From: a virus | Length of the DNA stretch: 25,807 nucleotides | Virus record (IMG/VR): IMGVR_UViG_3300015371_000154 | Location: 1 to 25,807 of that record | Strand: one strand, 5' to 3' | Part shown: positions 534 to 21,400 of the stretch, one piece after another | Position numbering within the stretch: the stretch's first letter is position 1 | Layout: each line of letters starts with the position of its first letter | Notes under the pieces: generated by a model | What the model was told of the DNA's origin: nothing | Database searches by the model: none | Seen by the model: the letters and a program-made list of their open reading frames with translations, nothing else | Made by a program: the position numbers and the translations under genes

Positions 534-1205
534 ATGTACCTGTGCCGCTATGACCTCCGAAGCAGCGGTCGAGGTTGCCCAAACGAGAGAGCACTCGATT
601 ACGAATACTGTCCTGAGCACCTCGATACTCCGCGTGGGCGCGCGCATGTTATGGACGTCATTCGCGCGGGACAATTGACTCTGCCTTCCCAAGTGGAGAG
701 GGCAATCGAGAAGGCAAAGGAGATTCCCGAGGAGGATTATCACACTACTGCTTTGGAGCGTATGGCCGATGCCTTGACAACTATTCAAACGTGGGTCGAC
801 GAGTCCAGAGACAATATGGACACCTTAGATAAGCACGAATATCGCTATAAGGACCGTGCCGGTCAAGAACAACTCCGCAGTGAGGTTTCAATCTACGAAA
901 GGGCGCTCGATAGGCTTTCCAAGCACCTTGGGGCTATGAGCAAGGTGTCTCTTCAGGATAAGATGGTCTCATTGGGCAAGGCTCAGGTCGACATGATGAT
1001 TCGAATGGTTATGTCGGTCGTTAATGAGCTGCGTTTGGATGATGAGCGCGCCCAAAAGGCACAGATCCTTTTGTTGGAGCTTTTGGAACGTGATGCGAAC
1101 CTTTCTGGCCGCGTGGACGTCTATGCGCATAAGCAGTTGGACTCTGCCGACGGCCATCGCATCGTGGATAGCACGGTGACGAGTCCTTATGCCCAGAGCC
1201 ACTAA
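534..1205 (+). CDS. candidate terminase small subunit / terminase-associated zinc protein
   Basis: A 223-residue protein directly before TerL. The N-terminus carries Cys4, Cys15, Cys26 and His29 (ending YCPEHL), spaced like a small zinc-binding knuckle. The rest (about 35-200) is predicted from its composition to be almost entirely charged helices, with a coiled-coil feel around 90-190. Position immediately upstream of, and overlapping by 17 nt, the large terminase gene, plus the helical architecture, fits a DNA-recognising small terminase subunit. No helix-turn-helix is obvious and I do not recognise a specific family, so the function is inferred from context. The start has AGGAT about 6 nt upstream. 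It probably works with TerL in recognising concatemeric DNA for packaging. Confidence 0.5.
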   Translation: MYLCRYDLRSSGRGCPNERALDYEYCPEHLDTPRGRAHVMDVIRAGQLTLPSQVERAIEKAKEIPEEDYHTTALERMADALTTIQTWVDESRDNMDTLDKHEYRYKDRAGQEQLRSEVSIYERALDRLSKHLGAMSKVSLQDKMVSLGKAQVDMMIRMVMSVVNELRLDDERAQKAQILLLELLERDANLSGRVDVYAHKQLDSADGHRIVDSTVTSPYAQSH

Positions 1206-2754
1206 ATTTGACGCCAAAGCCTATGCACTCGACCAATTAAAGTCGAGAATTCTTCCCAGCGACCCGGTTGAGTGGGTAAAGAAGAAGACTGGCGTTGGTT
1301 TATGGTCAAAGCAGCGAGAGATTTGCTATTCAGTTCAGAAAAACAGATTTACCGCAGTTAAAAGCGGCCACGGCGTTGGAAAGTCATTTACGACCTCCAA
1401 TTTAGCCGCATGGTGGGTTGATACCCATCCTGTTGACGATACTCTTGTTATTTCGACCGCTCCTTCCTCTCGTCAGGTCGGAGCGATTATGTGGGAAGAA
1501 ATTCGGAAGATTCATCGGAAGGCCCAACTTGCGGGCGAAGTACAGCGGGCAAATCGCTGGATTATCGACGATACTGAAGTGGGATTCGGGCGAAAGCCTC
1601 AAGATTACGATAAGCACGCTTTCCAGGGACTTCACCGCGATAATCTCTTGGTCATCATTGATGAGGCTTGCGGTGTCGACGAATGGCTGTGGATTGCAGC
1701 TATCTCGATGGCGACTGGCGAAAATAACCGGATCATTGCAATCGGAAACCCCGACGATCCTTCAAGTTATTTCTCCAAGGTCTGTCGTCCAGGTACGGAC
1801 TGGAATGTCATCCAGATTTCCGTATTTGATAGTCCGAACTTCACGGGTGAGCAAGTCACCGAGGAAGCTCGTCGAAAGCTTACTCAGCACTCGTGGGTAG
1901 ACTTTATGTCAAAGGAAGTCGGGCGCGGAACTGCGACCTGGACTTCTAAGGTACTTGGGGAATTCCCCGAAGTCGATGAAATGTCCACCATTCCCCTTGC
2001 GTGGATTCATCGCGCACAGGAACGCTATCAGGAATGGGAAGACGCTGGCAAGCCTATTTCGGGTCGTCATCTTCTCGGAGTGGACGTCGCCCGCTATGGA
2101 GGGGACAAAACAGCTTTCGCCCATCGTTGGGGAAATGTCTTCACTTCTGTTGACGTTTATCCTGGTGGAGATACTGAAGCAACTGCCGAGCGCGTTCTAG
2201 AGCATGAGGACGCTACAGCAATCGTCGACACTAACGGAGTAGGTGCCGGTGTCTACGATAAGCTTAGGGCCAGGGGAATGGCAGCGCTTCCCTTTAACTC
2301 TGGCAATAGGACTCATCTTCGCGATAAGTCTGGGCAGATTGAGTTTTATAACCTTCGTGCTGCCGCTACGTGGCGATTGCGTGAGGCTCTTGACCCTGCG
2401 AAGGGCGCGACCCTTTGTTTGCCACCGGGCGAGTTGTTAGCGGCTGATCTCAGCTCTCCGCGTTGGGCGACCATGGCTGGTGGAAAGCTGGTCATTGAAA
2501 CCAAGAAAGAAGTTAAGAAACGCCTGGGTCGTTCTCCTGACCGTGGCGACTCGGTAATCCTTGGGAATTGGCTTCAGGCTAATCAGTCTTTCGGTGTTGA
2601 AGATTCGACTTTCGATTGGGTAGACAAGGCGCCTTCAGAGGTGGATGATGTCTACGGCACGGTGGATTGGGTGACAGCACCGGATGAACCGAGTTTAGAG
2701 GTTACGCTTACGCAGCCTGGATCTATAGATACATCATTAGCCGGATGGTACTAA
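1189..2754 (+). CDS. terminase large subunit (TerL)
   Basis: ATP-driven DNA packaging motor and nuclease that cuts concatemers and docks on the portal. The 521-residue length is normal for the family. N-terminal ATPase: Walker A SGHGVGKS at residues 59-66 (Lys65), Walker B LLVIIDEA at 153-160 (Asp158-Glu159), and a likely coupling motif around AIGNPDDP (184-191). C-terminal RNase H-like nuclease: GVDVARYGGDKTA (297-309, metal-ligand Asp299), AIVDTNGVG (344-352, Asp347) and DRGDS (451-455), which give the expected acidic cluster. The ATG overlaps the preceding gene by 17 nt and has only a weak ribosome-binding site, so translational coupling is likely. The portal gene follows without any gap. 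All key residues are present, so the protein should be active. Confidence 0.96.
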   Translation: MPRATKFDAKAYALDQLKSRILPSDPVEWVKKKTGVGLWSKQREICYSVQKNRFTAVKSGHGVGKSFTTSNLAAWWVDTHPVDDTLVISTAPSSRQVGAIMWEEIRKIHRKAQLAGEVQRANRWIIDDTEVGFGRKPQDYDKHAFQGLHRDNLLVIIDEACGVDEWLWIAAISMATGENNRIIAIGNPDDPSSYFSKVCRPGTDWNVIQISVFDSPNFTGEQVTEEARRKLTQHSWVDFMSKEVGRGTATWTSKVLGEFPEVDEMSTIPLAWIHRAQERYQEWEDAGKPISGRHLLGVDVARYGGDKTAFAHRWGNVFTSVDVYPGGDTEATAERVLEHEDATAIVDTNGVGAGVYDKLRARGMAALPFNSGNRTHLRDKSGQIEFYNLRAAATWRLREALDPAKGATLCLPPGELLAADLSSPRWATMAGGKLVIETKKEVKKRLGRSPDRGDSVILGNWLQANQSFGVEDSTFDWVDKAPSEVDDVYGTVDWVTAPDEPSLEVTLTQPGSIDTSLAGWY

Positions 2755-4305
2755 GTGACATTCCCAACGAGTTACCTAGAAGATGAGTTAAACGACGAAC
2801 CACCTCCCATGGGAGAGCTTGGTTCCTCTTTTGCGTGGAATGACACTTTCGGTGGATACGATGCTGGTAAGGTTTTCGAGTATCCCGAGCCGGGCCGAAT
2901 TGAATACCATGAAATGCTCGATACTGATGGCAAAGCTGCCAGCATTGAGCAGGTGCTAACCTATCCCATCGTCTCCGCTCCGTGGGAAATTGCTGCTTCC
3001 CTTAATGAAGACGGATCTACCGAAGGCGGCGGGAAAGCCGATGAGATTCGTCAATTCGTCTTGGATGCATTGACTGACCTTCCGCACCAGGGCGGACCAC
3101 GTACAACCGTTGAGCAATTAATCAGTCAAATGACGATGGCCTTCACTGATAAGAAAGCCGTCTTCGAGAAGGTCTTTAAGGAGAATAAAGGCAAGGTCGT
3201 CTATGATAAACTCGCCTGGCGTCCTTTGGAGACGTGCGAGATTGCTTATGACGCCAAGAACTCTGATCTGAGAGGATATTACCAGACTCCGATCAAGTAC
3301 GAGCCGACTCCTCAGCTTTTCCCACAGGGACAGCGAATTTGGGTCCCCATGGCTCGGGCATTCATTTATATCCATGGAACGTGGCGCGATCCGCTCCATG
3401 GCATCTCATCGATGCGCGTGCCTTACTGGTGCTATATTACCAAGCGAAAGCTTCGCTGGCTATGGTATCAGTTCCTCGATCAGAATTACCTGCCCAAGAC
3501 TATTGTCAAAAACCCCGATGACACTCAGGCAGTAAGGGATGCGAAGAAAGTAGCCACCCTGAGGTCTAAGGGAGTGGTGGGACTCCGAGAGGATACGACG
3601 GTCACTCCGTTCGAATCTGGCGGGCATGGTGCGGCTGGATATCTCGAAGCGATTCGATTCCTCGACTCTGAGATGTCCAACTCGATTATGGCCGGATTCA
3701 ATGACCTATCGAGCATGGCGGCGAGTGGTAAGGGTTCCTATGCTCTTGCCGAAAGCCAGTCAAAGTTATATCTTCGCGCACGTCGAATGGTGGCGAAGGA
3801 TATGGCACGGTGGATTACTAATGGTGTCGTTGCTGATTTGGTCCGTTATAACTATGGCAATGCGGCTCCATGCCCGACTTTCCAATTTGGTCCACTCTCT
3901 GAGCAAAATGAGCTTGCAGTTCTGGATATGTTTAAGTCGGTCGCTTCAACGGGTGCGAACGTCGATCCTGAATTTTACGATGAGCTTCAGTCTCGTGTGG
4001 CAACTCTTCTGGAATTGGATCAGGGAAAAGTAAAGAAGTCGATGGAAGAGGGCACTGATACTCCCGGTGGACTTCAAGAGTTGGGAAAGAAGACCGAGAT
4101 AGCGACTCAGATGGTGCAGCACGCGCAAGCGACTGGTCAGATTGCTCCCTCTCCCATAGGTCCCGCTCCGGGTTCCAGTTCGAGTGCTCCTCCTGCTCCA
4201 ACGGGATCGCAAAGCGTAGTGAATAGTCCTAAAGCAGCGAAAAAGAGGACCCAGCTCCCAGCAAGGAAGAAGTCTCAGCCTACCAGGCAGCAAAGAGGTA
4301 GGTAA
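2755..4305 (+). CDS. portal protein (Mu gp29/DUF935-like)
   Basis: Forms the dodecameric ring at the capsid vertex through which DNA enters and leaves and to which the tail connects. The length of 516 residues is typical. Visible family-like segments are the N-terminal ADP-ribosyl-free portal core with LDTDGKAASIEQVLTYPIVS at about 56-75, WRPLETCEI near 155-165, and GTWRDPLHGISSMR near 208-222, where portals carry a conserved RDP-G-S-LR motif. The C-terminus (about 440-516) is disordered, rich in Pro/Ser/Gln and then strongly basic. It starts at GTG directly after the TerL stop codon (TAA-GTG), implying tight translational coupling. Unlike many DUF935-type portal loci, no MuF-like minor head protein follows. 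Confidence 0.9.
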   Translation: MTFPTSYLEDELNDEPPPMGELGSSFAWNDTFGGYDAGKVFEYPEPGRIEYHEMLDTDGKAASIEQVLTYPIVSAPWEIAASLNEDGSTEGGGKADEIRQFVLDALTDLPHQGGPRTTVEQLISQMTMAFTDKKAVFEKVFKENKGKVVYDKLAWRPLETCEIAYDAKNSDLRGYYQTPIKYEPTPQLFPQGQRIWVPMARAFIYIHGTWRDPLHGISSMRVPYWCYITKRKLRWLWYQFLDQNYLPKTIVKNPDDTQAVRDAKKVATLRSKGVVGLREDTTVTPFESGGHGAAGYLEAIRFLDSEMSNSIMAGFNDLSSMAASGKGSYALAESQSKLYLRARRMVAKDMARWITNGVVADLVRYNYGNAAPCPTFQFGPLSEQNELAVLDMFKSVASTGANVDPEFYDELQSRVATLLELDQGKVKKSMEEGTDTPGGLQELGKKTEIATQMVQHAQATGQIAPSPIGPAPGSSSSAPPAPTGSQSVVNSPKAAKKRTQLPARKKSQPTRQQRGR

Positions 4306-4993: not shown

Positions 4994-5386
4994 ATGGCCG
5001 TTCTCGATACCGCCGAGGCTAATAGGTATCTCGAAGCCCTGGTGGGTAAGACAACGTACTCCGCGACGGTATCTCCCATTAAGGTCAAGCTGTGTACTGC
5101 GGTGGGAAGCGATACTTCAGCGGGTACTGAGGTAAGTGGTGGAGGTTATGTCGCCGGTGGGCAGGGCGTGACCACGTGGAATGCGGCGGCTACTCGTCAG
5201 ATTACGAATAACACTGTTGTTTCTTATACAAACATGCCGGTGGCGACCGTGACGTCTATTGACGCAACGGACAGCACTGGTACTCCGGTTCGAAAGTTCT
5301 ATGGCACCTTGGCTGCATCTCGCACAACGGCATCGGGTGACACCCTGAGTTTCGCCGCTGCTGCGATTGTGCTCGGAATGGGGTAA
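4994..5386 (+). CDS. tail-fibre-like protein (Gp80-type)
   Basis: A 130-residue protein beginning MAVLDTAEANRYLEAL, followed by KTTYSATVSPIKVKLCTAVG and a Gly/Thr/Ala-rich beta body. This pattern is typical of the small phage tail fibre or Gp80-like proteins of actinophages, which start with a short helix and continue as a beta-sandwich. It is complete, uses an ATG just after a GAGGTAA-type ribosome-binding site and ends 3 nt before the peroxidase start. A role as a virion surface or adsorption component is likely. The position upstream of the capsid gene rather than after the tape measure is unusual for fibre-like proteins. Confidence 0.6.
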   Translation: MAVLDTAEANRYLEALVGKTTYSATVSPIKVKLCTAVGSDTSAGTEVSGGGYVAGGQGVTTWNAAATRQITNNTVVSYTNMPVATVTSIDATDSTGTPVRKFYGTLAASRTTASGDTLSFAAAAIVLGMG

Positions 5387-5389
5387 TAA

Positions 5390-6811
5390 ATGCGTAGGCT
5401 ACTCACCATCCTATTTACTGTTCTCGTCGGGGTGGGGGTGGTCGCGCCCCAAGCACTTGCTCAAGGAAGAATCGATGATGCAAAGACATCGTCGTCGCAT
5501 TTCGGATTTATGTTCAAAGACCTTGAGCCATTTACTAGTCCTCAACCGCAAGACCTGGCTGATTTAGCGCAAACGATGCTCGATCCCAATGCGGACTCTG
5601 AGAACAATGCTAATATGCTCTCGGTCTATACGTACTTTGGGCAGTTCATTGACCACGATTTAACTCTAGATACTCTTCCACAACCTAGTGCACCCGTCGA
5701 TCCGACCACTTTAGTCAATGGTCGGACTTTTAGGTTTGACCTGGATTCAGTTTATGGTGGTGGACCCGGCAAATCTCCTCAGCTCTACGAGAATGACGGT
5801 CTTCATTTTAAGGTGCAGAACCCAAACCCAAATGGGGTCGTAGACCTTCCACGAAATGCAGACGGTAGCGCCATCCTCGTTGAGGGTCGAAATGATGAAA
5901 ACGAGATCATTTCGCAGATCCATACTGCATTCCTCCTGTCGCACAACAAATTGATTGATTCTGGCCTGAATTTCGCTCAGGCTCGCGCAAAGCTAGTTGG
6001 AATGTACCAAGAAATCGTCTTGGGCGAGGTTCTTCCGCACTTTGTGACCGCTGCGGTCGTTAATGGGGAGCTAAATGGGAGTCTGAAGCGCTTCTATAAG
6101 GCTGGTGACCGCAATACACCGATGACTCCGGTCGAGTTTTCGGTTGCAGCGTACCGATTTGGCCATTCCATGGTGCGTCGTGCCTACGAATTGACCACTA
6201 CAACGGGTAAAATCCAGGTTTTCTCCCCTACAGCCCCCGATTTGCGTGGTGGACGGCAACTTCCTGCCGGTAGGCAGATCGATTGGGGTAACTTTATCGA
6301 GGAGTTGACCAGGCCCGAAAATGTGGCCCATCTCAACATCTCTCGCAAGATTGACCCGCTTATTTCCTCTTCTCTGTTCGTCTTGCCCATTCCTGGGGCT
6401 GAAGCAACGGGCTCTAACGTGCTCGCTTTCCGCAATATGACGCGCGCCGACTTCTACGGAATGGCTGACGGTCAAGATTTGGCCAAGGCAATGGGTATTA
6501 CACCCATTGATCCCACTGTATTGAGCGATAACCCTGCATTTGCTCAGGGAACGCCTATGTGGTTCTACATTCTTGCCGAATCCTCTCGTTCCACTAATGG
6601 CAAGTTCCTCGGCCCTGTGGGTGGACGCATTGTCGCCGATGTTTTCGTGCGACTCATGCAAATTGACAGGGCATCCATCCTTCGTGGTGGCAATAAGGTC
6701 AGCATTAAGGACGAAGACAGCACCATTACGCCTAGGGGTGGTGTCGAGCGGAATATGTTTACCTTGCCCGATCTGTTTGTCTTTGCCGGACTAGCCAAGA
6801 CTCCCTCATAG
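5390..6811 (+). CDS. secreted animal-type haem peroxidase
   Basis: A full-length (473 aa) member of the peroxidase-cyclooxygenase (An_peroxidase) superfamily in its bacterial form. These enzymes use H2O2 to oxidise halides, thiocyanate or phenols. A classic signal peptide (RR, hydrophobic core 4-18, ALA before Gln25) predicts export. Catalytic motifs are intact: distal GQFIDHD at 84-90 (Gln85, haem-linking Asp88, distal His89), calcium-site-like DLDSVYGGGP at 117-126, EGRNDENEI at 165-173 (catalytic Arg167, haem-linking Glu170, numbered by analogy to myeloperoxidase), proximal RFGHS at 256-260 (His259), and the bacterial C-terminal block FLGPVGGRIVADVFV (406-420). It starts 3 nt after a fibre-like gene and is followed by a membrane protein gene. 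Codon use by eye matches its neighbours, so any capture from a bacterium was not recent. What it does for the phage is unknown. Confidence 0.93.
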   Translation: MRRLLTILFTVLVGVGVVAPQALAQGRIDDAKTSSSHFGFMFKDLEPFTSPQPQDLADLAQTMLDPNADSENNANMLSVYTYFGQFIDHDLTLDTLPQPSAPVDPTTLVNGRTFRFDLDSVYGGGPGKSPQLYENDGLHFKVQNPNPNGVVDLPRNADGSAILVEGRNDENEIISQIHTAFLLSHNKLIDSGLNFAQARAKLVGMYQEIVLGEVLPHFVTAAVVNGELNGSLKRFYKAGDRNTPMTPVEFSVAAYRFGHSMVRRAYELTTTTGKIQVFSPTAPDLRGGRQLPAGRQIDWGNFIEELTRPENVAHLNISRKIDPLISSSLFVLPIPGAEATGSNVLAFRNMTRADFYGMADGQDLAKAMGITPIDPTVLSDNPAFAQGTPMWFYILAESSRSTNGKFLGPVGGRIVADVFVRLMQIDRASILRGGNKVSIKDEDSTITPRGGVERNMFTLPDLFVFAGLAKTPS

Positions 6812-6819
6812 GGGACGAA

Positions 6820-7002
6820 ATGCACGCAATTAACATAATTCTACTAATTTTGGCCCTGGTGTTCTTCATTGTCGCTGCCGTGGTCGGTTATGGTCCTGGC
6901 GCGGCAACTTCTCAAGGTTGGCATCGGACTAACTTCCTTGGTATTGGGTTAGCCTGTTGGGTGTTGACCGCCATCATTGAACTGGTAATTGGTAAGGTAT
7001 AA
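6820..7002 (+). CDS. small membrane protein, two transmembrane helices
   Basis: A 60-residue protein with a hydrophobic helix at about 4-24 (INIILLILALVFFIVAAVVG), a short polar turn containing GPGAATSQGWHRTN, and a second hydrophobic helix at about 39-57. No signal cleavage site is seen. It starts 8 nt after the peroxidase stop codon (RBS GGGGACG) and its stop codon overlaps the ATG of the next gene. The size and two-helix hairpin would also fit a class II holin, but no endolysin is recognised nearby, so the role is open. It may act at the membrane with the exported peroxidase. Confidence 0.7.
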   Translation: MHAINIILLILALVFFIVAAVVGYGPGAATSQGWHRTNFLGIGLACWVLTAIIELVIGKV

Positions 7003-7703
7003 TGCCGGGTGCCACTCTATTCGACTCAGCAACCGATTATTACTTCAATACCACCACGCCACCGTCGGGTAACTTGACGTTTACGTGTTGGACGAAGATT
7101 GCGGTCGATAGAGATGCGGCATCTACGCCATTTGCTATCGATGGTGGTGACCTTAACTGTGTGCTGTTACTGACCGACGCAACGGGTACTAACACTTTCA
7201 TTTATCACAATGGAGCGTTTAACCCGGGCACCGGTTTTGGGGCGACCGTTGGGACTTGGTATAAGAACGCTTACGTTCGGAACGGAACGGTTGGCACCTT
7301 TTATTTTGCTGCCGCTGGATCTCCTATGTCTAACTTAGTAGGTACAGCGGCAGCATTCACCCCTACGGAAGTGAGTATCGGTGCCAACCGTCGTACTGCG
7401 ACTACTCAGTTCTTTAATGGTTCCATAGCCGCGGTGAAGTTGTGGACGGCAGCTCTCACTGCCGCAGAGATTGATTGTGAATTTAATCAGTATGATCCGG
7501 TTCGCCGGACCAACCTTCAGCGTTACTATTCTTTTGCCAATGGTCCGCAGACCAATGATGAGTCCGGTGGCGGATTTACCTTGACTGCTGGCGCAGGCGC
7601 CTTGACAACGGATACAGCGGGACCACCCATTCCTCGTACCATTGTGAGGAAACCTATGGTTGTTCCTGCTTCAGTGGCGGTAGCTGATAGCTTTAACTGG
7701 TAG
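7002..7703 (+). CDS. LamG/concanavalin-A-like virion protein
   Basis: A 233-residue beta-rich protein with hallmarks of the LamG/laminin-G-like jelly roll: FDSATDYYF near the start, LTFTCWTKI at 25-33, a central YKNAYVRNGTVGTFYF, and IGANRRTATTQFFNGSIAAV (about 127-146), which matches the conserved 'G...FFNG-IAAV-LW' strand, followed by LWTAALTAAEI. This fold usually binds carbohydrate, so a role in adhesion to host or environmental glycans is likely. It overlaps the previous gene by one base (TAATG). The C-terminal tail is Pro/Val-rich. It is not an obvious enzyme, since no glucanase catalytic Glu pair is visible. Confidence 0.75.
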   Translation: MPGATLFDSATDYYFNTTTPPSGNLTFTCWTKIAVDRDAASTPFAIDGGDLNCVLLLTDATGTNTFIYHNGAFNPGTGFGATVGTWYKNAYVRNGTVGTFYFAAAGSPMSNLVGTAAAFTPTEVSIGANRRTATTQFFNGSIAAVKLWTAALTAAEIDCEFNQYDPVRRTNLQRYYSFANGPQTNDESGGGFTLTAGAGALTTDTAGPPIPRTIVRKPMVVPASVAVADSFNW

Positions 7704-7710
7704 GGATATT

Positions 7711-8172
7711 GTGACAATATATTGCGTCAAACAAGGTGGGTTTTCACATCCTGCCGCTGGTACAAAATCTAGTTGGCTGCTCAACCCGGTGTCAAGGTCA
7801 ATTAAAATTGTCGAGATTAGTATATCTTACGACTCTGCCGTTTCCGGCGCCGGTTTCGCAGTTGAGCTGTATCGGGTGACGACACTTGGCTCCCCTGCCG
7901 GCACTACCTATACACCGGTGAAGATCAGTGGAGGGGCTGATACGTCTGCTTGTGCCACTACGGCGCTGATTGCGTTGGGTACGGAACCGACAGCAATTGA
8001 AACCCTCGCTGAGTGGATGATTCAACCCTTTGGTGGGGTCCTTTTGCTTCAGTATCCTCAGACCAGGGAGCCTTTTACCGCTCAGGCCGGTCAGCGTATT
8101 GGCATAAGGACGTCAACGCCTGCTGGTGCCACTACTTGTAACTCTCGCGGTTACGTATGGTTTGACGAGTAA
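7711..8172 (+). CDS. beta-rich virion-type protein, unknown function
   Basis: This 153-residue protein starts at GTG, 7 nt after the LamG-like gene. It consists of short predicted strands such as IKIVEISISYDS, GFAVELYRVTT, and QRIGIRTSTPAG near the C-terminus, consistent with a single beta-sandwich of the sort seen in capsid decorations or fibre heads. Its C-terminus (SRGYVWFDE) resembles the final strand of such folds. I do not recognise a family. It probably belongs with the following repetitive protein, which starts directly after its stop codon (TAA-ATG). Confidence 0.6.
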   Translation: MTIYCVKQGGFSHPAAGTKSSWLLNPVSRSIKIVEISISYDSAVSGAGFAVELYRVTTLGSPAGTTYTPVKISGGADTSACATTALIALGTEPTAIETLAEWMIQPFGGVLLLQYPQTREPFTAQAGQRIGIRTSTPAGATTCNSRGYVWFDE

Positions 8173-10815
8173 ATGTCAGTCTTCGGCAGGAGTTTCCCCA
8201 CTCACCCCGTATACAGGCCGCCACCTGTTCAGATACCTCTTGCCAGGGCAGCCGTTCGAGCGCGCAATCAGGGTGCGCAAGTTACCGGTTCTACTACTCA
8301 CGTCATTAACCTGCCTGCCGGTGTCCAGGTAGGAGAGCTTCTCTATGTTGCGTTCTCCATTGACACCGCGACGGTCAACACCTCGACATCGTCGTCAGGT
8401 TGGCAAAAACTCGTTGAGATGGCGCAAGGCACCACCACTAACCATAAAGGTTCTGTGTGGTGGAAACGAGCCACCGGTTCAGATGCACTGACAATTAACT
8501 CGGACGCCTCTGTTCAGTCGACGCATATATCGCTGGCCCTAACGAATGCGGATGATCCCGAGGCGTGGGCGGCAAATGGTGCATCGGCATCTTTGGCGTC
8601 TCCTCCCGCTGCGACACCTACTAAGGGTGTCGAAGACTATATGAGTGTTATCAGTATCCATACGGACTCTTCAGCAGGTACGACTCAGAACTTTGGCACT
8701 GCTGCGGGATATTCCAACTCCACTACGCAGCAGGCCAGCACAACGTCATCGGCCGCGACGAACACCCAAGAGCAGATTTATCCTGCCTCCTCCGGATTCA
8801 CACCGGGTACCGTTTCTCTGAGCTTGTCTGAGCAGTGGGTAGCTATTACCACTGCGATTGGCACTGCGAGTCAGGCAGGCGGTGCCGTTACCTATCAGGG
8901 CTCCGTTTCCCTGACCGCTACTCCGACTCTCACTGTCGATTCGTTCCTAGAAACCTTTGCCACTCTTTCCCTAACCGCCACTACTACACTGACGGTCAAT
9001 GCCTATCTTACCGAAGTTGCATCCCTTAGCCTCATCGCATCCCCCACTATCGCACTTAACGCGGTTCGAACGACTCCCGCCAGTATATCTCTTAGCGCGA
9101 CCCCAACTCTTTCGGTTGCCGCGCCCGCAGTTACAACCTTCGCCTCTGTTTCCCTCACTGCGAGTCCTACGCTATCCGTCGATGGTATCCGTACAACCCC
9201 TGCCTCGATATCTCTAACCGCTACACCGACGTTAGCCATTCCCTCACCGGGATTGGTTGAGGTAGCCAGCGTCTCCCTAATTGCTACCCCAACGCTTACT
9301 GCTAATGCCACGACTATCCAACAGGCGTCTCTGAGCCTGACAATCTCTCCCACGCTCTCCGTTAGCATCTTCACGACGATATCGCTTTCGGTCACCCTGA
9401 CCGCTACACCCACGATATCGCTAAATGGTGTCAGGACAACCTTCCCCGCGGTTTCCCTGACTATCTCCCCAAGCCTCGCCGTTAGCGTCTATTTAACATA
9501 TCCAACCTCCCTGGCGCTAACGGTGAGTCCCACGTTGTCTATCGCTACTCCGGCGTTGACAACGTTTGCATCGGCAACCTTAATAATTGGTCCGACGATC
9601 ACCGTCAGCGGCTTGAGAACTGCTGTAACCTCCGTTAGTCTCTCCATCACACCGACACTAACGATTTCGGGTCTACTCCAAGCAGCGGCCACTGTTAGTC
9701 TGATTGCGGCTCCCAGCATAGCAATCAGTGCGGAACGGATCACCCCCTCAGCGATAACGCTGATAGCCATCCCGCAACTAACAGTGGCCGCCCTACTTCC
9801 TCAGGCGTCCATTTCCCTAATTGCGACTCCTACCTTCTCCGCAACGATATTTGCGATTCGGCCCGCTTCCGTCACTCTGACTATCTCCCCTACTCTGAGT
9901 TTGACGATCGGCGCAGTTCCCGCCTCTATTTCGTTGACGACCATTCCGACGCTGTCGGTTTCTATTTATGCAACTGCGAGTGTCAGTGTATCTCTATTTG
10001 CTATACCGACGATTTCAGTCACTGTTGCGCTTACTACCTTTGCTAGTGCTTCTCTCATTGCGGTTCCAACTCTTACCGTCTCCGCCCTTAGGACGACGTT
10101 TGCTAGCGTTTCACTTACTGTCGTTCCGAGTATTGGGCTTTCAGCGGACCGAATTGCTGTTTCTTCTGTTAGTCTATCTATCTCTCCAACGATCTCCCTT
10201 GTCCTGGTTGCTCCTGGTGCCTTCCTCTCCCTGACGATCACCCCGACGATCTCTGCGACGCTCCTCTATATAGGGGCTGTCAGCGTCCAGCTCGCGGCCT
10301 CCCCGACCCTCACGGTCACCGGGTACCTCACGGCGCGTGCGTCCCTCTCGCTCTCCATCACACCTACCCTTGCCGTATCGTTCTTCGGTCAGAGCCCGGC
10401 ATCCCTCCTCCTAACCGTTGTGCCTACCCTTGCGGTAGACGCTTCGCGCTACGTTCCTGCCTCTATCGCTCTCCTCGTCACACCCTCTCTGTTCGTCGAT
10501 GGCGTTAGTCAATCGCTCCCCGCTGTCAATCTGGTCATCGCTCCCTCCATTTTGCTCACCGCACAACGCTTTGCGGTTTCGTTTATCAGTTTGCTTATCG
10601 TTCCTACCATCTCCCTTAGGGGAGTTATCGAGGGTGCCGGTCCAGGTTGGCCGATCATTTTCAGCCTGGTGTCTATCACGACGGGCGATGAGCCTGTATC
10701 ATCTTCTCAAACTCCAATTAAGCCGTCGTTTGCTCTACAGAGCGTGACTAATGAATCAAGTGGCTCCGCTGTAGTAGCTACTCCTTACATTGCGTTCGAG
10801 GTAGCTAATGCCTGA
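8173..10815 (+). CDS. giant repetitive fibre/adhesin-like protein (880 aa)
   Basis: Residues 1-242 form a beta-rich N-terminal domain (for example VGELLYVAFSIDTATVN and EQWVAITTAIGTA). Residues 243-824 are about 29 tandem repeats of 19-21 residues with consensus A-S-x-S-L-T-x-x-P-T-L-S-V plus a variable 6-8-residue linker, and residues 825-880 form a non-repeat cap. Alternating hydrophobic and Thr/Ser residues point to stacked beta-strands (beta-solenoid or a rod of small beta-modules). Related Thr/Ala/Ser-rich repeats occur in actinophage minor tail proteins, so an elongated host-binding fibre is the best guess. No signal peptide or LPXTG anchor is seen. ATG follows directly after the previous stop codon, and the 3' end overlaps the peptidase gene by 8 nt. 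Confidence 0.8.
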   Translation: MSVFGRSFPTHPVYRPPPVQIPLARAAVRARNQGAQVTGSTTHVINLPAGVQVGELLYVAFSIDTATVNTSTSSSGWQKLVEMAQGTTTNHKGSVWWKRATGSDALTINSDASVQSTHISLALTNADDPEAWAANGASASLASPPAATPTKGVEDYMSVISIHTDSSAGTTQNFGTAAGYSNSTTQQASTTSSAATNTQEQIYPASSGFTPGTVSLSLSEQWVAITTAIGTASQAGGAVTYQGSVSLTATPTLTVDSFLETFATLSLTATTTLTVNAYLTEVASLSLIASPTIALNAVRTTPASISLSATPTLSVAAPAVTTFASVSLTASPTLSVDGIRTTPASISLTATPTLAIPSPGLVEVASVSLIATPTLTANATTIQQASLSLTISPTLSVSIFTTISLSVTLTATPTISLNGVRTTFPAVSLTISPSLAVSVYLTYPTSLALTVSPTLSIATPALTTFASATLIIGPTITVSGLRTAVTSVSLSITPTLTISGLLQAAATVSLIAAPSIAISAERITPSAITLIAIPQLTVAALLPQASISLIATPTFSATIFAIRPASVTLTISPTLSLTIGAVPASISLTTIPTLSVSIYATASVSVSLFAIPTISVTVALTTFASASLIAVPTLTVSALRTTFASVSLTVVPSIGLSADRIAVSSVSLSISPTISLVLVAPGAFLSLTITPTISATLLYIGAVSVQLAASPTLTVTGYLTARASLSLSITPTLAVSFFGQSPASLLLTVVPTLAVDASRYVPASIALLVTPSLFVDGVSQSLPAVNLVIAPSILLTAQRFAVSFISLLIVPTISLRGVIEGAGPGWPIIFSLVSITTGDEPVSSSQTPIKPSFALQSVTNESSGSAVVATPYIAFEVANA
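8899..10644 (+). repeat. about 29 tandem 57-63-bp coding repeats
   Basis: Each unit encodes a variant of A-S-V-S-L-T-A-T-P-T-L-S-V followed by a loop often ending in RTTP, RTTF or LTTF. Copies diverge strongly at the DNA level, so this is an old array rather than a recent slippage expansion. Unit length varies between 19 and 21 residues. Confidence 0.85.
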
Positions 10816-11491
10816 TTACCCCATTTTGGATCGTAAGGTCTTTTTTGACAACCAGTCCAGAAGTTACGGGGTTCGCAACCTTTTGGGAGATTCCAAACCT
10901 CTAAAGAAGAGGGTATGGAATCCAGGAGTAAACGTTCTTGATCAGGGTAGAGAGGGCCGATGTGTCGCATTTGGTTGGGGTAACGAACTAGCTTCTACAC
11001 CTCATCGATATGATATCAATACCGAATGGTGTAATCAACATTGGCCCTTGATTGTCGCCAAAGATCGTGAGATGGGAAATGACTTCTCCGACGGTGCTAG
11101 TGTCCTTGCCGGCGCTAAGACTATGCAAATGCTCGGGAACGTTAAGAGTTACCATTGGGGCTTTGGTATCGACGACGTATTGCAGCATTTATCTCGTCGC
11201 GGTCCTGTGGTACTCGGTATCAACTGGTACGCTTCTATGTACTCAACTAGAAGCGATGGACTTGTCACAGTGGAGGGAGACAGGGTAGGGGGGCATTGCA
11301 TCCTGGCTTACGGTGTCTGGCCGAAGCATCCACTCTTTCGGACCGATGTGGTACTCTGGATCAATTCGTGGGGTCCGAAGTACGGTATCAACGGCCGGGG
11401 GTATGTGCCTACAGATAGTTTGAGTCGACTGCTGAAGGAGGATGGTGAAGCCTGTATGGCTACTGACCGTCCTGTTAAGGGGGCAAGGTAA
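10808..11491 (+). CDS. papain-like (C1A family) cysteine peptidase
   Basis: This 227-residue protein has the papain catalytic arrangement: oxyanion Gln46 and nucleophile Cys52 in LDQGREGRCVAFGWG (44-58, compare NQG-CGSCWAF of papain), His163 in GGHCILAYG (161-169), and Asn186 in WINSWGPKYGINGRGYV (184-200). The 'DGAS' near 95 also fits the family. There is no signal peptide and almost no pro-region (about 40 residues), so it is probably active without long propeptide processing. The gene overlaps the repetitive fibre gene by 8 nt and ends by overlapping the next start. It could trim a virion protein, digest envelope proteins during entry, or be injected. Intact catalytic residues argue for activity, but the target is unknown. 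Confidence 0.88.
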   Translation: MPDYPILDRKVFFDNQSRSYGVRNLLGDSKPLKKRVWNPGVNVLDQGREGRCVAFGWGNELASTPHRYDINTEWCNQHWPLIVAKDREMGNDFSDGASVLAGAKTMQMLGNVKSYHWGFGIDDVLQHLSRRGPVVLGINWYASMYSTRSDGLVTVEGDRVGGHCILAYGVWPKHPLFRTDVVLWINSWGPKYGINGRGYVPTDSLSRLLKEDGEACMATDRPVKGAR

Positions 11492-12435: not shown

Positions 12436-13559
12436 CAACTTCTACGGCTGTATCTCCCTTTGTAGTCAGTGATATTACTGAAGTCGAACTAGCTGACGGA
12501 AAGGGAACTAAGAAGGTTTGGAAGAAGCAAATTCTTCCGGCCGGTACTAGGAAGTATAGGGGAGAAACTCTAGATTTTTCTAAGATTAACCCAGCATGTA
12601 TCCAGGCTTTTAACGGAGGCGCATTCGACGCCGTTCCCTTTGTACTTGCTTTGTCTGATAACGAGCACCCCAAGCCGGGTGACGAGGGAAAGCAACTCGA
12701 AGGCGACGTCTATAGGCTGGAGATGGGCGAAGATGGGAGCCTCTTCGGATATTTTGATTTCTCACATTCTCCGAATGTTGTCGGAACAATTCGAAAGAGT
12801 GCTGGTAAATTCGGAGTTTCCGGTCGAATTGAGGTGGACTACACCGCAGAGGACACCGGTAAGCATTACGATTATGCTCTCTCCCACGTCTGTGGAACAA
12901 CTCGACCCCACATTAAGGGACTTGCCAATTGGCAGCCTGTAGAGCTGAGTGAGGACGAAAAGAATAGGCCGACTATCGACTTCTCCACGGAGATTATCGA
13001 CGAGCCCAAGGACGATAAGAATGACATCACTAAAGACAAGCCGGAGGATGACCTCGTGGCTGTAGAGATTCCCAAGGAAAAGCTCGATAGGCTCCTTGCG
13101 TTGCTCGACGATGATCTCGATGACGACGAGTTGGAAGAGTCGGCAGACGACGTCGAAAAGAAGGTAGAGCTTCCCAAGGAAGCACAGGAGAAGATTGCCG
13201 CTGCGGAAGCTGCTTCTCAGCGCGCTTTGGAACTTGCCGAGACTATGCAGGTGGATGCTGCCCAGACGAGGTGGAAGGCGCAGCGCGCTACTTACCTCTC
13301 GAAGGGCGTTCCTCCGGTCCTTCTCGACCTGGCTGAAAAGGTTATGAAGCGGCACCGCCCAATCACTCTCGAATTTGCCGAGGGTGACACCGTGGATGCT
13401 ACCGACGTTATTACCAAGATTCTCGACGAGTGCGAGGGTTACCTTGTTCTCTCGGATGAGAAGGGTCACTCCTTTACCGATCCGCAGCAGAATTCAGAGT
13501 ACACCAAGCTCGAAGAGGCGTTTGACGCAATGTGGACAAATGATGGGAGGGACCGCTAA
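12432..13559 (+). CDS. prohead protease fused to scaffold
   Basis: A 375-residue protein with two parts. Residues 1-175 look like a Mu gpI/herpesvirus-assemblin-type maturation protease: NEHP with His79, FGYFDFSH (105-112), KFGVSGRIEVDY (126-137, candidate Ser130) and LSHVCGTTRPHIKGLANW (150-167), near the usual 'LT-NP-h-G' block. Residues 185-290 are highly charged, with an acidic run (DDDLDDDELEESADD, about 226-240) and an Ala/Glu coiled coil, typical of an internal scaffold that is cleaved away after assembly. It starts at GTG overlapping the previous stop codon and ends at TAATG shared with the decoration gene. Catalytic residues are assigned by analogy, not certain. Confidence 0.75.
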   Translation: MTTSTAVSPFVVSDITEVELADGKGTKKVWKKQILPAGTRKYRGETLDFSKINPACIQAFNGGAFDAVPFVLALSDNEHPKPGDEGKQLEGDVYRLEMGEDGSLFGYFDFSHSPNVVGTIRKSAGKFGVSGRIEVDYTAEDTGKHYDYALSHVCGTTRPHIKGLANWQPVELSEDEKNRPTIDFSTEIIDEPKDDKNDITKDKPEDDLVAVEIPKEKLDRLLALLDDDLDDDELEESADDVEKKVELPKEAQEKIAAAEAASQRALELAETMQVDAAQTRWKAQRATYLSKGVPPVLLDLAEKVMKRHRPITLEFAEGDTVDATDVITKILDECEGYLVLSDEKGHSFTDPQQNSEYTKLEEAFDAMWTNDGRDR

Positions 13560-14032
13560 TGCCGGGCCTTCTTCCCACCTTTGATCAGGGTCCGTTTACC
13601 TTTAGCGCGACCACTGTTGCTAATGGTGGAAATATCAAGGGTGGAATGCTGGTGGAGCCTGATGGCACCACGGGACGCATTAAGCCTGCAAGCGCCGCTT
13701 CGGTTACCTGTCTCGGTGTCGCCATGGGTGACGCTTCCGCAAGTGACTATTCAAACGCGGATACCACGGATACGTGGGGCAATACCATTGTCAACGCTCA
13801 GTATCCTCCGAACGAAACTGCGGTAGCCTGTGAGGGTGTCTTTAAGCTCAAGGTTGCCGCAACTTCGGCTACCGTTCCCTTTGGCGCACTCGTCAAGTGT
13901 GCGGCGAATGGTGAGGTTACTCTCAACTCTACGGGAAGTGCTGCGACATTCGACCAAATTATCGGTCGTTGCATCGAACCATTGGGAATTGTTGCTGGCG
14001 CCCGTGGCAAGATTAACCTGGATTGGGCGTGA
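13559..14032 (+). CDS. capsid decoration protein (DUF2190-like)
   Basis: This 157-residue protein is rich in Gly/Ala/Thr and carries a pattern of short strands: TVANGGNIKGGMLVEPDG near the start, VTCLGVAMGDAS, ETAVACEGVFKLKVAA, and VPFGALVKCAANGEV followed by IIGRCIEPLG. This is the usual signature of DUF2190/head-decoration proteins, which sit on the capsid surface and stabilise the expanded shell. It lies between the protease-scaffold and the major capsid protein, exactly where decoration genes are found, sharing TAATG with the upstream gene and ending 5 nt before the capsid gene. Confidence 0.78.
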   Translation: MPGLLPTFDQGPFTFSATTVANGGNIKGGMLVEPDGTTGRIKPASAASVTCLGVAMGDASASDYSNADTTDTWGNTIVNAQYPPNETAVACEGVFKLKVAATSATVPFGALVKCAANGEVTLNSTGSAATFDQIIGRCIEPLGIVAGARGKINLDWA

Positions 14033-14037
14033 TATAA

Positions 14038-15003
14038 ATGGCTGTTCAGACTGTCACGCATAGCTATGACGGCCCGAAATGGACTGTCAATGATCTGATT
14101 AAGAACCCCACCTTTGTCCCTAACCAAATCGCTAAGTCGGTTAAGGACACCAATATCGCCGATCAGCTCTTGCGCACCGGTCCCACCGCTGTTGGTGGAG
14201 CTGTTGCCTATGAGACAACTCTTGCTCTGTATGCAGGGTCCGAAGGCGAAATTGTTGCGGAGTACGCTGAGTACCCGATGACCGATGCGCCGATGCGTAC
14301 TCGGATGACTGCGGGTACGACTAAGAAAGGTCTCGGATTCCGATTCTCCGAGGAAATGCGTACTCGTAATGACGTCGGTCGCGTGCAAGACGTCATGCAG
14401 ATGGTGCGGGACACTCTTATTGCCGGTAAGGATAAGGCGTATATCAACGCCGTTCTCGGCAACACCTCCGTTCAGTCTTTCGCAGCTTCTTCTGCCGCAA
14501 CGACTGACGGTTGGTATGCGACGGACCCCAACGTCTCAAAGATTAAGTACGATATCGCTCGGGCGATGTTCAAGCTCACATCGCAGGGTGTCTCTGGCGC
14601 TCAGTACAGTGAGAAGCTGGGATATCGAGCTAACACCCTAGTTTGTCACCCTCAGGTCTCTGCCATGCTTATTCAGAGTCCTGAAGTGTCTGGAATGTTC
14701 CAGCCTGCCGCAGCGCCGACGGCTAAGACAGTCGTTTTCGAAGGTATGTACCCGACGAAGTTCCTGACGCTTGACGTCTTCGAATCCTGGCGTTGCCCGC
14801 AGGATACAGTGATTGTCTGTCAGCGTAAGGCAATGGGGTTCATCGCGAATGAGTGGACACTGAAGGGTACTCCACTGAAGTTCGACGAATCGACCGATAC
14901 GTACACTTCCTATTTCAAGTACCGTGACCTCGTGGTTGTCGATAATCCTCTTGCGGTTTGCAAGATTACGAACATCGACGGCTCCGCGAATGTGGTGTGG
15001 TAA
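14038..15003 (+). CDS. major capsid protein (HK97 fold)
   Basis: The 321-residue length, position after protease/scaffold and decoration genes, and sequence features all indicate the major capsid protein. An N-terminal arm is followed by IADQLLRTG and AVAYETTLALYAGSEGEIVA (E-loop-like region), then KKGLGFRFSEEMRTRNDVGR, which resembles the conserved segment before the spine helix, and a long helix around DVMQMVRDTLIAGKDKAYI. The C-terminal part contains PQDTVIVCQRKAMGFIAN and YRDLVVVDNPLAVCKI, typical of the A-domain and final strand of this type. Many copies form the icosahedral shell. It is preceded by a short AT-rich spacer (GATATAAATG). Confidence 0.92.
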   Translation: MAVQTVTHSYDGPKWTVNDLIKNPTFVPNQIAKSVKDTNIADQLLRTGPTAVGGAVAYETTLALYAGSEGEIVAEYAEYPMTDAPMRTRMTAGTTKKGLGFRFSEEMRTRNDVGRVQDVMQMVRDTLIAGKDKAYINAVLGNTSVQSFAASSAATTDGWYATDPNVSKIKYDIARAMFKLTSQGVSGAQYSEKLGYRANTLVCHPQVSAMLIQSPEVSGMFQPAAAPTAKTVVFEGMYPTKFLTLDVFESWRCPQDTVIVCQRKAMGFIANEWTLKGTPLKFDESTDTYTSYFKYRDLVVVDNPLAVCKITNIDGSANVVW

Positions 15004-18462: not shown

Positions 18463-21400
18463 GTTGAAATCGCATTCAACGCAGGAGCGATCGAAGCTCG
18501 CCTAACCCTCGATAGAACTTCTTTCAACAATGGACTTAGAGCCGCCAAGGCTGACGCCGAGAAGTTTGCCAGGCAAAAGTTCGAAGTCAAGATTACCCCT
18601 AAGTTAGAACGTGGCGACCTCGCGCGTATCAAGCAGGAGATTGAGCGCGTCACAGGGAATATCAAGGCTAAGGTATCCCTCGACAATTCCTCTCTCGCTG
18701 CAATCAAGGAGCGCATTAACCGTACCGTCGGTGATATCAAGGTCAGAGTCTCCCTTGATAACTCCTCCCTCACCGCGGTCAAAGAGCGTATCAACCGCAG
18801 TGTCGGTAGGATCTCGGTTAAGGTACAGCTTGACAACTCCTCACTAGCGGCCGTCAAGCAGCGAATCAATAGCGCTACCGGCAAGGTCAATGTTAAAGTT
18901 CAGCTTGACAACTCTTCCCTGCAAGCACTAAGGGCAAGAGTCAATAGCGTTAACCTCAGGGCCAAGGTTTCTCTCAACCTTGACAACTCTTCGCTCCAAG
19001 CCATTAGAGCAAGAGTCGATTCCCTCAGGTTAAAGATCAAGGTAGGTCTCGACTTTGATCGATCCGATCTCACTCGACTGCGTGCTGAGTTATTAGCCTT
19101 TAGACCCACTATCAAGGTCAGACTCGACATTGATAGAAGTAGTCTTGATCAGCTACAAGGCTCACTCAGAGGAGTCTCATCTGGCTTTAGTGGTGCCGGT
19201 AGCCAGGCTCGCGCTTTAATTGCTGCGCTCCCTCTCCTTCTGACTGTTGGCGCGCCTGCCATTAGTGGTCTCATAGGGTTACTCGGTGGGCTCAGTAGTG
19301 CATTCGGAATCGCTGCCGCTGGCTTGGGTGCCTTTGGTCTCGTCGGTGCCAGTGTCTTTAAGACAATCAGTCAGCACGCTCAAAAGTCTGCGGACGCTAC
19401 CAAGGCAGTTTCGGCTGCCTATGATCAGGTCGGCCAGGCTCGGGAAAGATTATCTCAGACAATCGATGACGCTGCTCATCAAAATGAGCAGGCTGAGAAG
19501 CGCGTTGCCGATGCCAGGGAACAATTATCTCGAACTACCGAAGCTGCTGCTAGAGCCGATGTAGCAGCCGAGGAAAGGGTTGCGGACGCTCGAAAGAACC
19601 TGGCCCAGGTTACCCAATCCGTAGCCCGAGATAATCTGGCTGCCCAACAACGAATTGGAGATGCTGAGCAAAACTTAGCTGATACTGTTGAATCAGTAGC
19701 GAGAGCTAATGTATCGGCTCAACAGCGAGTCGCCGATGCCAGACAGAACCTCTCAGATACTATTGAGCAGGCCGCTAGGAGTGATGCACAAGCAGAAGAG
19801 CAAGTCGTTGCGGCGCAGGAATCTCTGCAAAGAACCATTGAGGCAACCGCTAGAGCTAATGAGGATGCCCAGGCACGCATTGCTGACGCGCGTAAGACTT
19901 TAGCAAGAGCAGTTGAATCTGCCGCACAAGATGAAATAGCCGCTGAGGAACGAGTCGCTGCGGCTAGGGAAGATTTAGCTAGGACTGTTGAGGACGTAGC
20001 CCGTTCTAATGCTTCGGCACAGGATCGCGTTGCGAGTGCAGAGCAGTCTCTCACCAGGACTCAAGAGGCCGCTAAGCGCGCTCAGGAAGACCTGAACCAA
20101 GCGCGTAAGGATGCGGTTGAGGAACTAGAAAACCTTAAGCTTTCTCTTCGGGGGGCAGCCCTTTCCGAAGAGCAGGCAATGATTGACCTGCAAGACGCGC
20201 AGGAGAAATATAACGCAGCACTTGCCAAGGGTACGAGTGGTAAGGAACTTCACCAACTCGACCTTGACGTTCGCAAGGCAAAGCTGTCCTTGGATGAGTC
20301 CAGGGAAAGCCTGGATGATCTTAAGAAAAAGAGTGACGAATACGCTAAGTCTGGTATTGAGGGATCTCAGGGAGTACGGGACGCACAGCAGAAAGTTGCT
20401 GATGCTAATCAGGATATCCAAGCCTCTGAGAAAGATGTAGCGGACGCACGTAAAGAGGCTGCTCAGACTGCCCTCGATGGTCAGCGCCAGATTCAAGCGT
20501 CCCAACAGGGTATTATTAAGGCTCAAAAAGAAGCGTCTCAAGTAGCTATAGACGGTCAGCGCGCTATAGCGGATGCCCAAGAGGGAGTCCTTAAAGCACA
20601 AAAGGATGCTACTCAGACCGCGCTCGATGGACAGCGAGATATTCAAAAGGCTCAACAGGATGTAGTTAAGAGCCAGCAGCAAGCTGTTCAGACCGCTCTA
20701 GACGGTCAAAAGAGCGTTCAGAAAGCACAAGAGGATGTTGCTAAGGCGCAAGCCGAGGCTACCCAAACGGCTCTCGACGGTCAGAAACAAATCCAAAGAG
20801 CCCAGCAGGAAATTTCTAAGGCTCAAGCAGAGGCAGCTCAGACAGCTTTAGATGGTCAGCAGAAGCTTGCAGATGCTCAGGAACAAGTTGCTAGGGCTCA
20901 AAGGGAAGCTGCACAAACTGCATTAGATGGTCAGCGTGATGTCGCTGATGCACAAAAGGCAGTGGCGGAAGCTCAGCAGGAAGCTGCAAGAATTGCTCTG
21001 GAAAATCAGAAGCAAATTGCAGCGGCAACTCGCGACTTGGTTAATGCCCAGCGCGATTACAACAATGCCTTGGGCGAGATGCCTCAGAAGCTTCTCCCCG
21101 GTATGCAAAAGGCTTTAGATGCTCTCGATAGGCTCAAGGCATCCTATCAAGGGCTCGTTGACCGAACCTCTCCCGCAGTGGGGGGCGCCTTTGCCGCCGT
21201 CTTTGACGCTGGGACTGCCGCGCTCAATACCCTAGATCCTCTGGTCAATGCTACCGCAGCATCCCTAGAGAGAATGGGTCGCAGTCTTCAGACTTACTTC
21301 GGTACTACCGACTGGAAGAACTTTGTTGACTTCCTCTCGCAGCATGTTGGCCCCACCCTCGATAAGGTCTTCGCAGCAACATCTAATCTTCTCGGTGGAA

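Follow-up and report, generated by a model that had tools for sequence, protein, structure and literature searches.

A predicted exported haem peroxidase encoded in the late module of a soil phage

A haem peroxidase gene among virion genes

The window analysed here is IMG/VR record IMGVR_UViG_3300015371_000154 over its whole length, a 25.8-kb (25,807-nucleotide) linear viral metagenome record whose carrier is a soil phage. We observed that its late module encodes a predicted exported haem peroxidase, in an order that runs from terminase, portal and gp80-like genes through the peroxidase to cement/scaffold, capsid and tail genes, all on the + strand (Table 1). This is the late-operon setting that a preliminary description, made from the letters alone, had proposed. 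The open reading frame begins with ATG and runs through 473 residues without a frameshift, as that description had also held. Only 3 bases separate the gp80-like stop from the peroxidase ATG and 8 bases lie between the peroxidase stop and the start of the next gene, and the GC content at third codon positions (GC3) of 0.52 is within the range of the neighbouring genes. In a separate assembly of the window's own phage (L002; L numbers are our handles), which differs by 4 mismatches in 8.3 kb and by none inside the peroxidase gene, the gene and both junctions are present again. On the strength of sequence and a structure model, we consider it probable (roughly 0.75) that this tailed phage carries an active exported peroxidase as late cargo.

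The protein belongs to the An_peroxidase family of Pfam, where it had been placed beforehand (PF03098, E = 1.1e-14, 54.4 bits against a cut-off of 25), by a match that covers residues 105-272 only; 10 phage relatives likewise exceed the cut-off. An AlphaFold model computed from 41 homologues reached a mean confidence (pLDDT) of 87 and a predicted template modelling score (pTM) of 0.88, with residues 1-31 as the sole long stretch below 50. Residues 31-472 of the model align with solved peroxidases (Foldseek, VIA-align), giving Z scores of 24-30 across 360-397 residues. The best match was the cyanobacterial peroxidase 8s6c (Z 29.6, 378 residues, root-mean-square deviation 3.0, 21% identity), and DdPoxA of Dictyostelium scored 27.4; myeloperoxidase (Z about 25), dual oxidase, lactoperoxidase and cyclooxygenase together span 24-26. 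A single-sequence search of the PDB with the window protein gave no match, and solved relatives were reached by profile only, namely a cyanobacterial peroxidase labelled lactoperoxidase, peroxinectin A and mammalian peroxidases.

The motifs quoted in the preliminary description, GQFIDHD, EGRNDENEI, RFGHS and the C-terminal GPVGGRIVADVF (residues 408-419), are all present and in that order. The profile alignment pairs the GQFIDHD, RNDE and RFGHS stretches with catalytic motifs of solved enzymes, RNDE with the R-x-x-E of lactoperoxidase and myeloperoxidase. Signatures of the peroxidase-cyclooxygenase superfamily include GQxxDHD, R-x-x-E and a Gln linked to halide binding (PMC4420034), and the window protein has GQxxDHD (84-90), RxxE (167-170) and His259 with Asn349. 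His89, Arg167 and His259, named beforehand as catalytic, do coincide with catalytic positions; together with Gln85, Asp88, Asp90 and Glu170 they are invariant in the aligned set of 22 phage and 18 bacterial proteins. Position 349 is Asn in 17 and Asp in 4 of the 21 phage proteins that have the position, and Asn in 18 of 18 bacterial ones. A third haem bond of the myeloperoxidase type (Met243 sulfonium) was rejected, the position being Asn171 in all phage and bacterial members. Judged by sequence and model, the window gene encodes an intact haem peroxidase of this superfamily. By analogy with the family, in which halide oxidation is the dominating activity of most members studied (PMC4420034), the enzyme would hold its haem covalently through Asp88 and Glu170 and oxidise halides or pseudohalides.

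Table 1. Features of the window, with the peroxidase and its predicted functional sites
Feature	Position	Strand	Basis or detail
Large terminase	1189-2754	+	
Portal, Mu-type	2755-4305	+	PF06074 Portal_Mu 8e-39; 38-40% identity to Streptomyces phage portals
gp80-like fibre gene, immediately upstream of peroxidase	4994-5386	+	PF23140 2.6e-10
Predicted exported haem peroxidase gene, 473 residues	5390-6811	+	PF03098, AlphaFold, structural matches
Predicted Sec-type signal peptide, residues 1-24, probable cleavage between ALA and Q	5390-5461	+	Sequence reading and hydropathy
Distal motif GQFIDHD, residues 84-90	5639-5659	+	Gln85 (halide binding in the superfamily), Asp88 (ester bond), distal catalytic His89, Asp90 (Ca)
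RNDE motif with Arg167 (catalytic) and Glu170 (forms an ester)	5888-5899	+	Within EGRNDENEI (165-173)
RFGHS, residues 256-260, proximal haem ligand His259	6155-6169	+	Aligned with RfGHt/RyGHT of eosinophil peroxidase and myeloperoxidase
Asn349, predicted hydrogen-bond partner of proximal His	6434-6436	+	Sequence alignment
60-residue protein, two hydrophobic stretches, immediately downstream of peroxidase	6820-7002	+	
LamG-like protein	7002-7703	+	
Long repeat protein	8173-10815	+	
Peptidase gene	10808-11491	+	phrog_16701 1.2e-38
Cement/scaffold-like protein	13559-14032	+	
Major capsid protein, late-module marker	14038-15003	+	phrog_1650 4.8e-55
Connector, then tail tube	between capsid and tape measure	+	
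Tape measure, then distal tail genes	19324-23676	+	

Export signals and distribution among phages

The signal peptide proposed earlier for the window protein is supported by the reading of its sequence and by hydropathy: the start, MRRLLTILFTVLVGVGVVAPQALA with Q following the probable cleavage site, has a best 14-residue hydropathy window that averages 2.68. Signal types of all members were read from their sequences. Among the 22 phage members we found 8 Sec-like starts, 13 twin-arginine starts such as MDRRTLLRLGLAGGGAVALLPWGGRAMA, whose bearers form one clade (100/100), and 1 damaged start. No anchor was evident at the C-termini of the phage peroxidases in the aligned set. Predicted export is therefore retained while the route differs (Sec or twin-arginine). 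The damaged start, in L093, appears to have its hydrophobic segment and the mature protein in different frames (about 7940-8030); the apparent frameshift may be a sequencing error or a decayed start.

These members come from three IMG/VR scans with the window protein, which together with alignments yielded 32 contigs. Once L144 and L147 were left out and identical proteins merged, there remained 31 contigs, L002 among them, which carry 22 distinct phage peroxidases counting that of the window; one identical peroxidase (L129 group) occurs in 8 contigs from 8 samples. On high-GC contigs, genes were called with the peroxidase as codon seed. The two contigs left out carry distant (33%) peroxidases with no obvious signal peptide (L144 1873-3444; L147 764-2334, broken), which fall near cyanobacterial and proteobacterial peroxidases, outside the phage clade, and may not be viral.

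In 18 of the 22 cases head or tail genes lie no more than a few kb from the peroxidase gene. These loci are the window, L003, L005, L006, L007, L010, L092, L093, L094, L121, L123, L124, L126, L128, L129, L137, L143 and L146. The slot runs from terminase to portal in L006, precedes the tape measure in L007 and L010, follows the portal in L092 and the capsid in L093, and falls between protease and capsid in L129 and between portal and capsid in L146. The capsid genes of L121, L126 and L143 were recognised by sequence likeness to a PHROG-tested neighbour. Two terminase types occur among the carriers, phrog_2 (window, L003, L005) and phrog_9 (L006, L093, L146 and the L008 phage), along with two portal types (phrog_113, phrog_12) and several capsid types. 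From this gene content, the carriers are phages, mutually unrelated ones included. That export is kept across signal types, and that the gene was placed in late modules again and again, speaks for selection over chance. With at least 21 other distinct phage versions in the same phage-only lineage, it seems that phages have on repeated occasions taken up a secreted enzyme for handling oxidants.

We found no counterpart of this gene in the reference collections. A tblastn search of 50,697 isolate phages (INPHARED) with the window and L009 proteins gave no peroxidase match; PHROGs, NCBIfam and PADLOC hold no family for the phage peroxidase; and the BFVD structure library has no homologous phage entry, only one giant-virus (Orpheovirus) protein. 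In the literature searched on phages and animal or haem peroxidases, no phage member of the An_peroxidase kind was found. What is new is the spread of this gene as phage cargo from a known enzyme superfamily, its carrier and setting previously unreported. The preliminary description went too far in knowing of no characterised phage peroxidase, since a secreted peroxidase encoded by a prophage of 'Candidatus Liberibacter asiaticus', SC2_gp095, has been reported (PMC12628843). As a phage-borne, secreted peroxidase, perhaps of another family, it is the nearest precedent; unlike the enzymes described here, it acts in a crop pathogen, where it suppresses plant defences (PMC12628843).

Among cellular enzymes, the bacterial short peroxicins (family 5, PF03098), to which the phage protein may belong, share a short secreted single-domain form, GQxxDHD, RxxE, the proximal His with Asn and bacterial kin, whereas the phage peroxidase is carried in phage late modules. 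LspPOX (Lyngbya; assigned to family 6, PMC4420034), RbMPO (Rhodopirellula) and 8s6c (cyanobacterium TDX16) share the fold and active-site residues, but are cellular genes, and the phage protein is only about 20% identical to the solved one. DdPoxA (6erc), secreted by Dictyostelium, resembles it in signal peptide, fold and soil setting; unlike it, DdPoxA is eukaryotic, belongs to family 6 and has a single ester bond. Its antibacterial role is supported by a knock-out (PMC5787809). The Orpheovirus haem peroxidase (A0A2I2L5A1) is viral and has the same fold (BFVD, E = 2.7e-13), but belongs to a giant virus of amoebae and is 18% identical. As in auxiliary metabolic or moron cargo, the gene is host-derived, exchanged between phages and outside the virion recipe; unlike such cargo, it is an exported haem enzyme repeatedly placed within late virion modules.

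Exchange, origin and likely hosts

The window has two sister phages, L003 and L005, whose major capsid proteins are 80-84% identical to its own. In both, the window's slot is empty and the peroxidase instead lies directly behind the peptidase, before the following gene; the window has no insert there. Their peroxidases group with that of L006 (support 98-100/96-97), a phage of another terminase and portal type, and leave the window's copy outside. The window peroxidase is 68-71% identical to the L003/L005 copies, below the 81-84% of the capsid in the same comparison. A different slot and a gene tree that crosses phage kinship indicate that, within a single phage group, copies were exchanged or independently gained. 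In the more distant relative L097 (capsid 43%), we found no peroxidase between portal and peptidase. The gene thus behaves as phage cargo of the auxiliary or moron kind: its slots vary, it is absent from the L097 site and its tree crosses kinship.

The phage proteins form one clade, with bootstrap support of 97/97 for the first 12 and 94/92 for all 22, and a single origin of the lineage is the simplest reading of the tree. Its sister is L011 (an Acidimicrobiia metagenome bin), followed by Pseudonocardia. 'Animal-type', the label first given to the protein, is the Pfam name only: in our tree, built without named family-5 reference sequences, the phage peroxidases nest among bacterial ones, mainly from Actinomycetota. 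Across the 84,980 genomes of a species-level collection, the best bacterial match is 44% identical overall. Within L011's phylum a homologue occurs in 32 of 396 genomes (8%), the best again being L011. L003 and L005 differ by a dN (nonsynonymous divergence) of 0.165 and a dS (synonymous divergence) of 0.94, a sign of purifying selection; the ratio is quoted for this pair only, as dS was saturated in most pairs.

Clade support of 94-97% and purifying selection agree with the earlier view of an established phage gene, and the survey for phage homologues proposed at that stage gave the 22 versions, with the sister phages retaining the gene in another slot. The argument from codon style to a long-standing gene holds in part: the lineage is old in phages, whereas the window copy has been exchanged between phages, because its slot differs from that in L003/L005 and its closest relative is not theirs.

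In the cases checked, portals and capsids had isolate relatives, mostly at 29-46% identity, in Streptomyces, Gordonia, Mycobacterium and Arthrobacter phages; for L092 the top isolate relative is an unannotated faecal phage, followed by Arthrobacter phages. Since these portal and capsid relatives infect Actinomycetota, the hosts are likely Actinomycetota as well.

Possible roles and neighbouring genes

In the mechanism that we propose, the bacterial, peroxicin-like peroxidase would probably be transcribed together with the virion genes and cross the membrane via the Sec route. It would bind host haem, linked through Asp88 and Glu170, form compound I with ambient hydrogen peroxide (H2O2) and then, outside the infected cell, oxidise either phenols or small anions (I- and SCN-, perhaps Br-). 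The phage might thereby control oxidant chemistry around the dying cell, using up H2O2 and making short-lived hypo(pseudo)halites that would hit neighbouring cells or surface receptors. We infer late expression, export, activity and substrate; the benefit as such is speculative, and extracellular oxidant production is our tentative first choice for it. In its favour we count the antibacterial oxidants of characterised relatives. RbMPO kills E. coli and also uses Cl-, and LspPOX prefers its substrates in the order I- > SCN- > Br- (PMC10204396); iodide and thiocyanate are both substrates that DdPoxA oxidises, and it keeps down the bacterial contamination of fruiting bodies (PMC5787809).

Several observations weigh against a late, active, oxidant-producing enzyme. 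In L004, L008, L009 and L139 the peroxidase gene lies away from virion genes, so late timing does not hold throughout, and in four phage members the residue paired with the proximal His is Asp, not Asn. Beside the peroxidase, no enzyme that makes H2O2 was seen. Killing neighbours could also eliminate future hosts.

Among other benefits, we rank removal of peroxide next, then modification of walls or receptors, and last a role in the virion. In soil rich in peroxide, removal of extracellular H2O2 could shield progeny virions as well as the host and other hosts nearby, with oxidants incidental. Any peroxidase consumes H2O2, but peroxidases depend on a reducing co-substrate and are poorer than catalases at clearing peroxide, and the conserved Gln85 with both ester residues points to (pseudo)halide oxidation. 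RbMPO has catalase activity too (PMC10204396), and scavenging of reactive oxygen has been reported for the secreted prophage peroxidase of the citrus pathogen (PMC12628843). Peroxide protection is a somewhat unlikely benefit. Oxidation of wall polymers, receptors or extracellular matrix, which might aid release, prevent progeny from re-adsorbing to debris or block superinfection, would suit export without an anchor, the late-module position and an apparently secreted transglycosylase-like protein encoded among the late genes of the L008 phage (L101 6703-7290). We regard it as unlikely, the peroxidase having no fused wall- or sugar-binding domain.

The position between portal and capsid, among fibre-like, LamG-like and long repeat protein genes, might suggest a peroxidase packaged on the capsid or tail like its lectin-like or fibre-like neighbours. 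Export signals in both lineages (Sec-like and twin-arginine) and a slot that varies by phage, tail, connector and non-virion regions included, make this improbable. A chance bacterial pick-up or a chimeric contig would fit the homologues in 8% of the 396 sampled genomes from one bacterial phylum, but is the least probable explanation by far: the same junctions recur in L002, the GC3 resembles that of the neighbours, the 22 phage versions form one clade whose nearest bacterial relative in the species-level collection is 44% identical, and L003/L005 point to purifying selection. A frameshift or chimera in the window was rejected on the intact reading frame and the recurring junctions.

Returning to oxidant production, the phage-only exported lineage of Actinomycetota soil phages might serve as a late oxidant system against competitors or superinfecting phages, a counterpart of peroxidase-based immunity; we think this rather less than likely. 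Provided that the enzymes are active, tailed phages send out a myeloperoxidase-like catalyst while their virions are being made, and extracellular H2O2-driven oxidation would be added to the known phage chemistry outside the host membrane. It would also give bacterial peroxicins a first physiological setting, the role of family 5 having been called completely unknown in 2015 (PMC4420034). Testable questions follow on how phages compete, on superinfection and on how virions survive in soil.

Other genes recur around the peroxidase. Papain-like peptidases occur in several peroxidase-carrying phages and in one phage without a peroxidase at that site (window 10808-11491; L005 7256-8002; L009 5127-5858; L098 3222-4073; L097 1114-1818), identified by phrog_16701 in the window and L009 and by sequence likeness in the others; the window's copy carries Cys, GGHC and WxNSWG-like motifs. 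Very long late-module proteins with many short 'SVSLTATPTLSV'-type repeats (window 8173-10815; L003 1765-7308; L099 12366-16319) differ greatly in length between related phages and are possibly head or tail fibres. The transglycosylase-like protein of the L008 phage, on the - strand, has a signal-like start and an Rpf-like look. Close to the peroxidase in several phages, protein starts alone suggest glycosyltransferase-, methyltransferase- and epimerase-like genes (L124 7055-12135; L137 7644-12501; L006/L100 1500-7506; L007 2343-3392; L010 10110-11150), which could be surface or DNA modification cargo. Short two-helix hydrophobic proteins (window 6820-7002; L003 1589-1756; L101 5521-5709; L137 5269-5454; L143 4459-4641) recur close to peroxidase or fibre-like genes and may be holin-like; they lie close upstream of the peroxidase in L137 and L143, and in L003 and L101 (L008 phage) the counterpart of the window's 60-residue protein lies away from the peroxidase gene.
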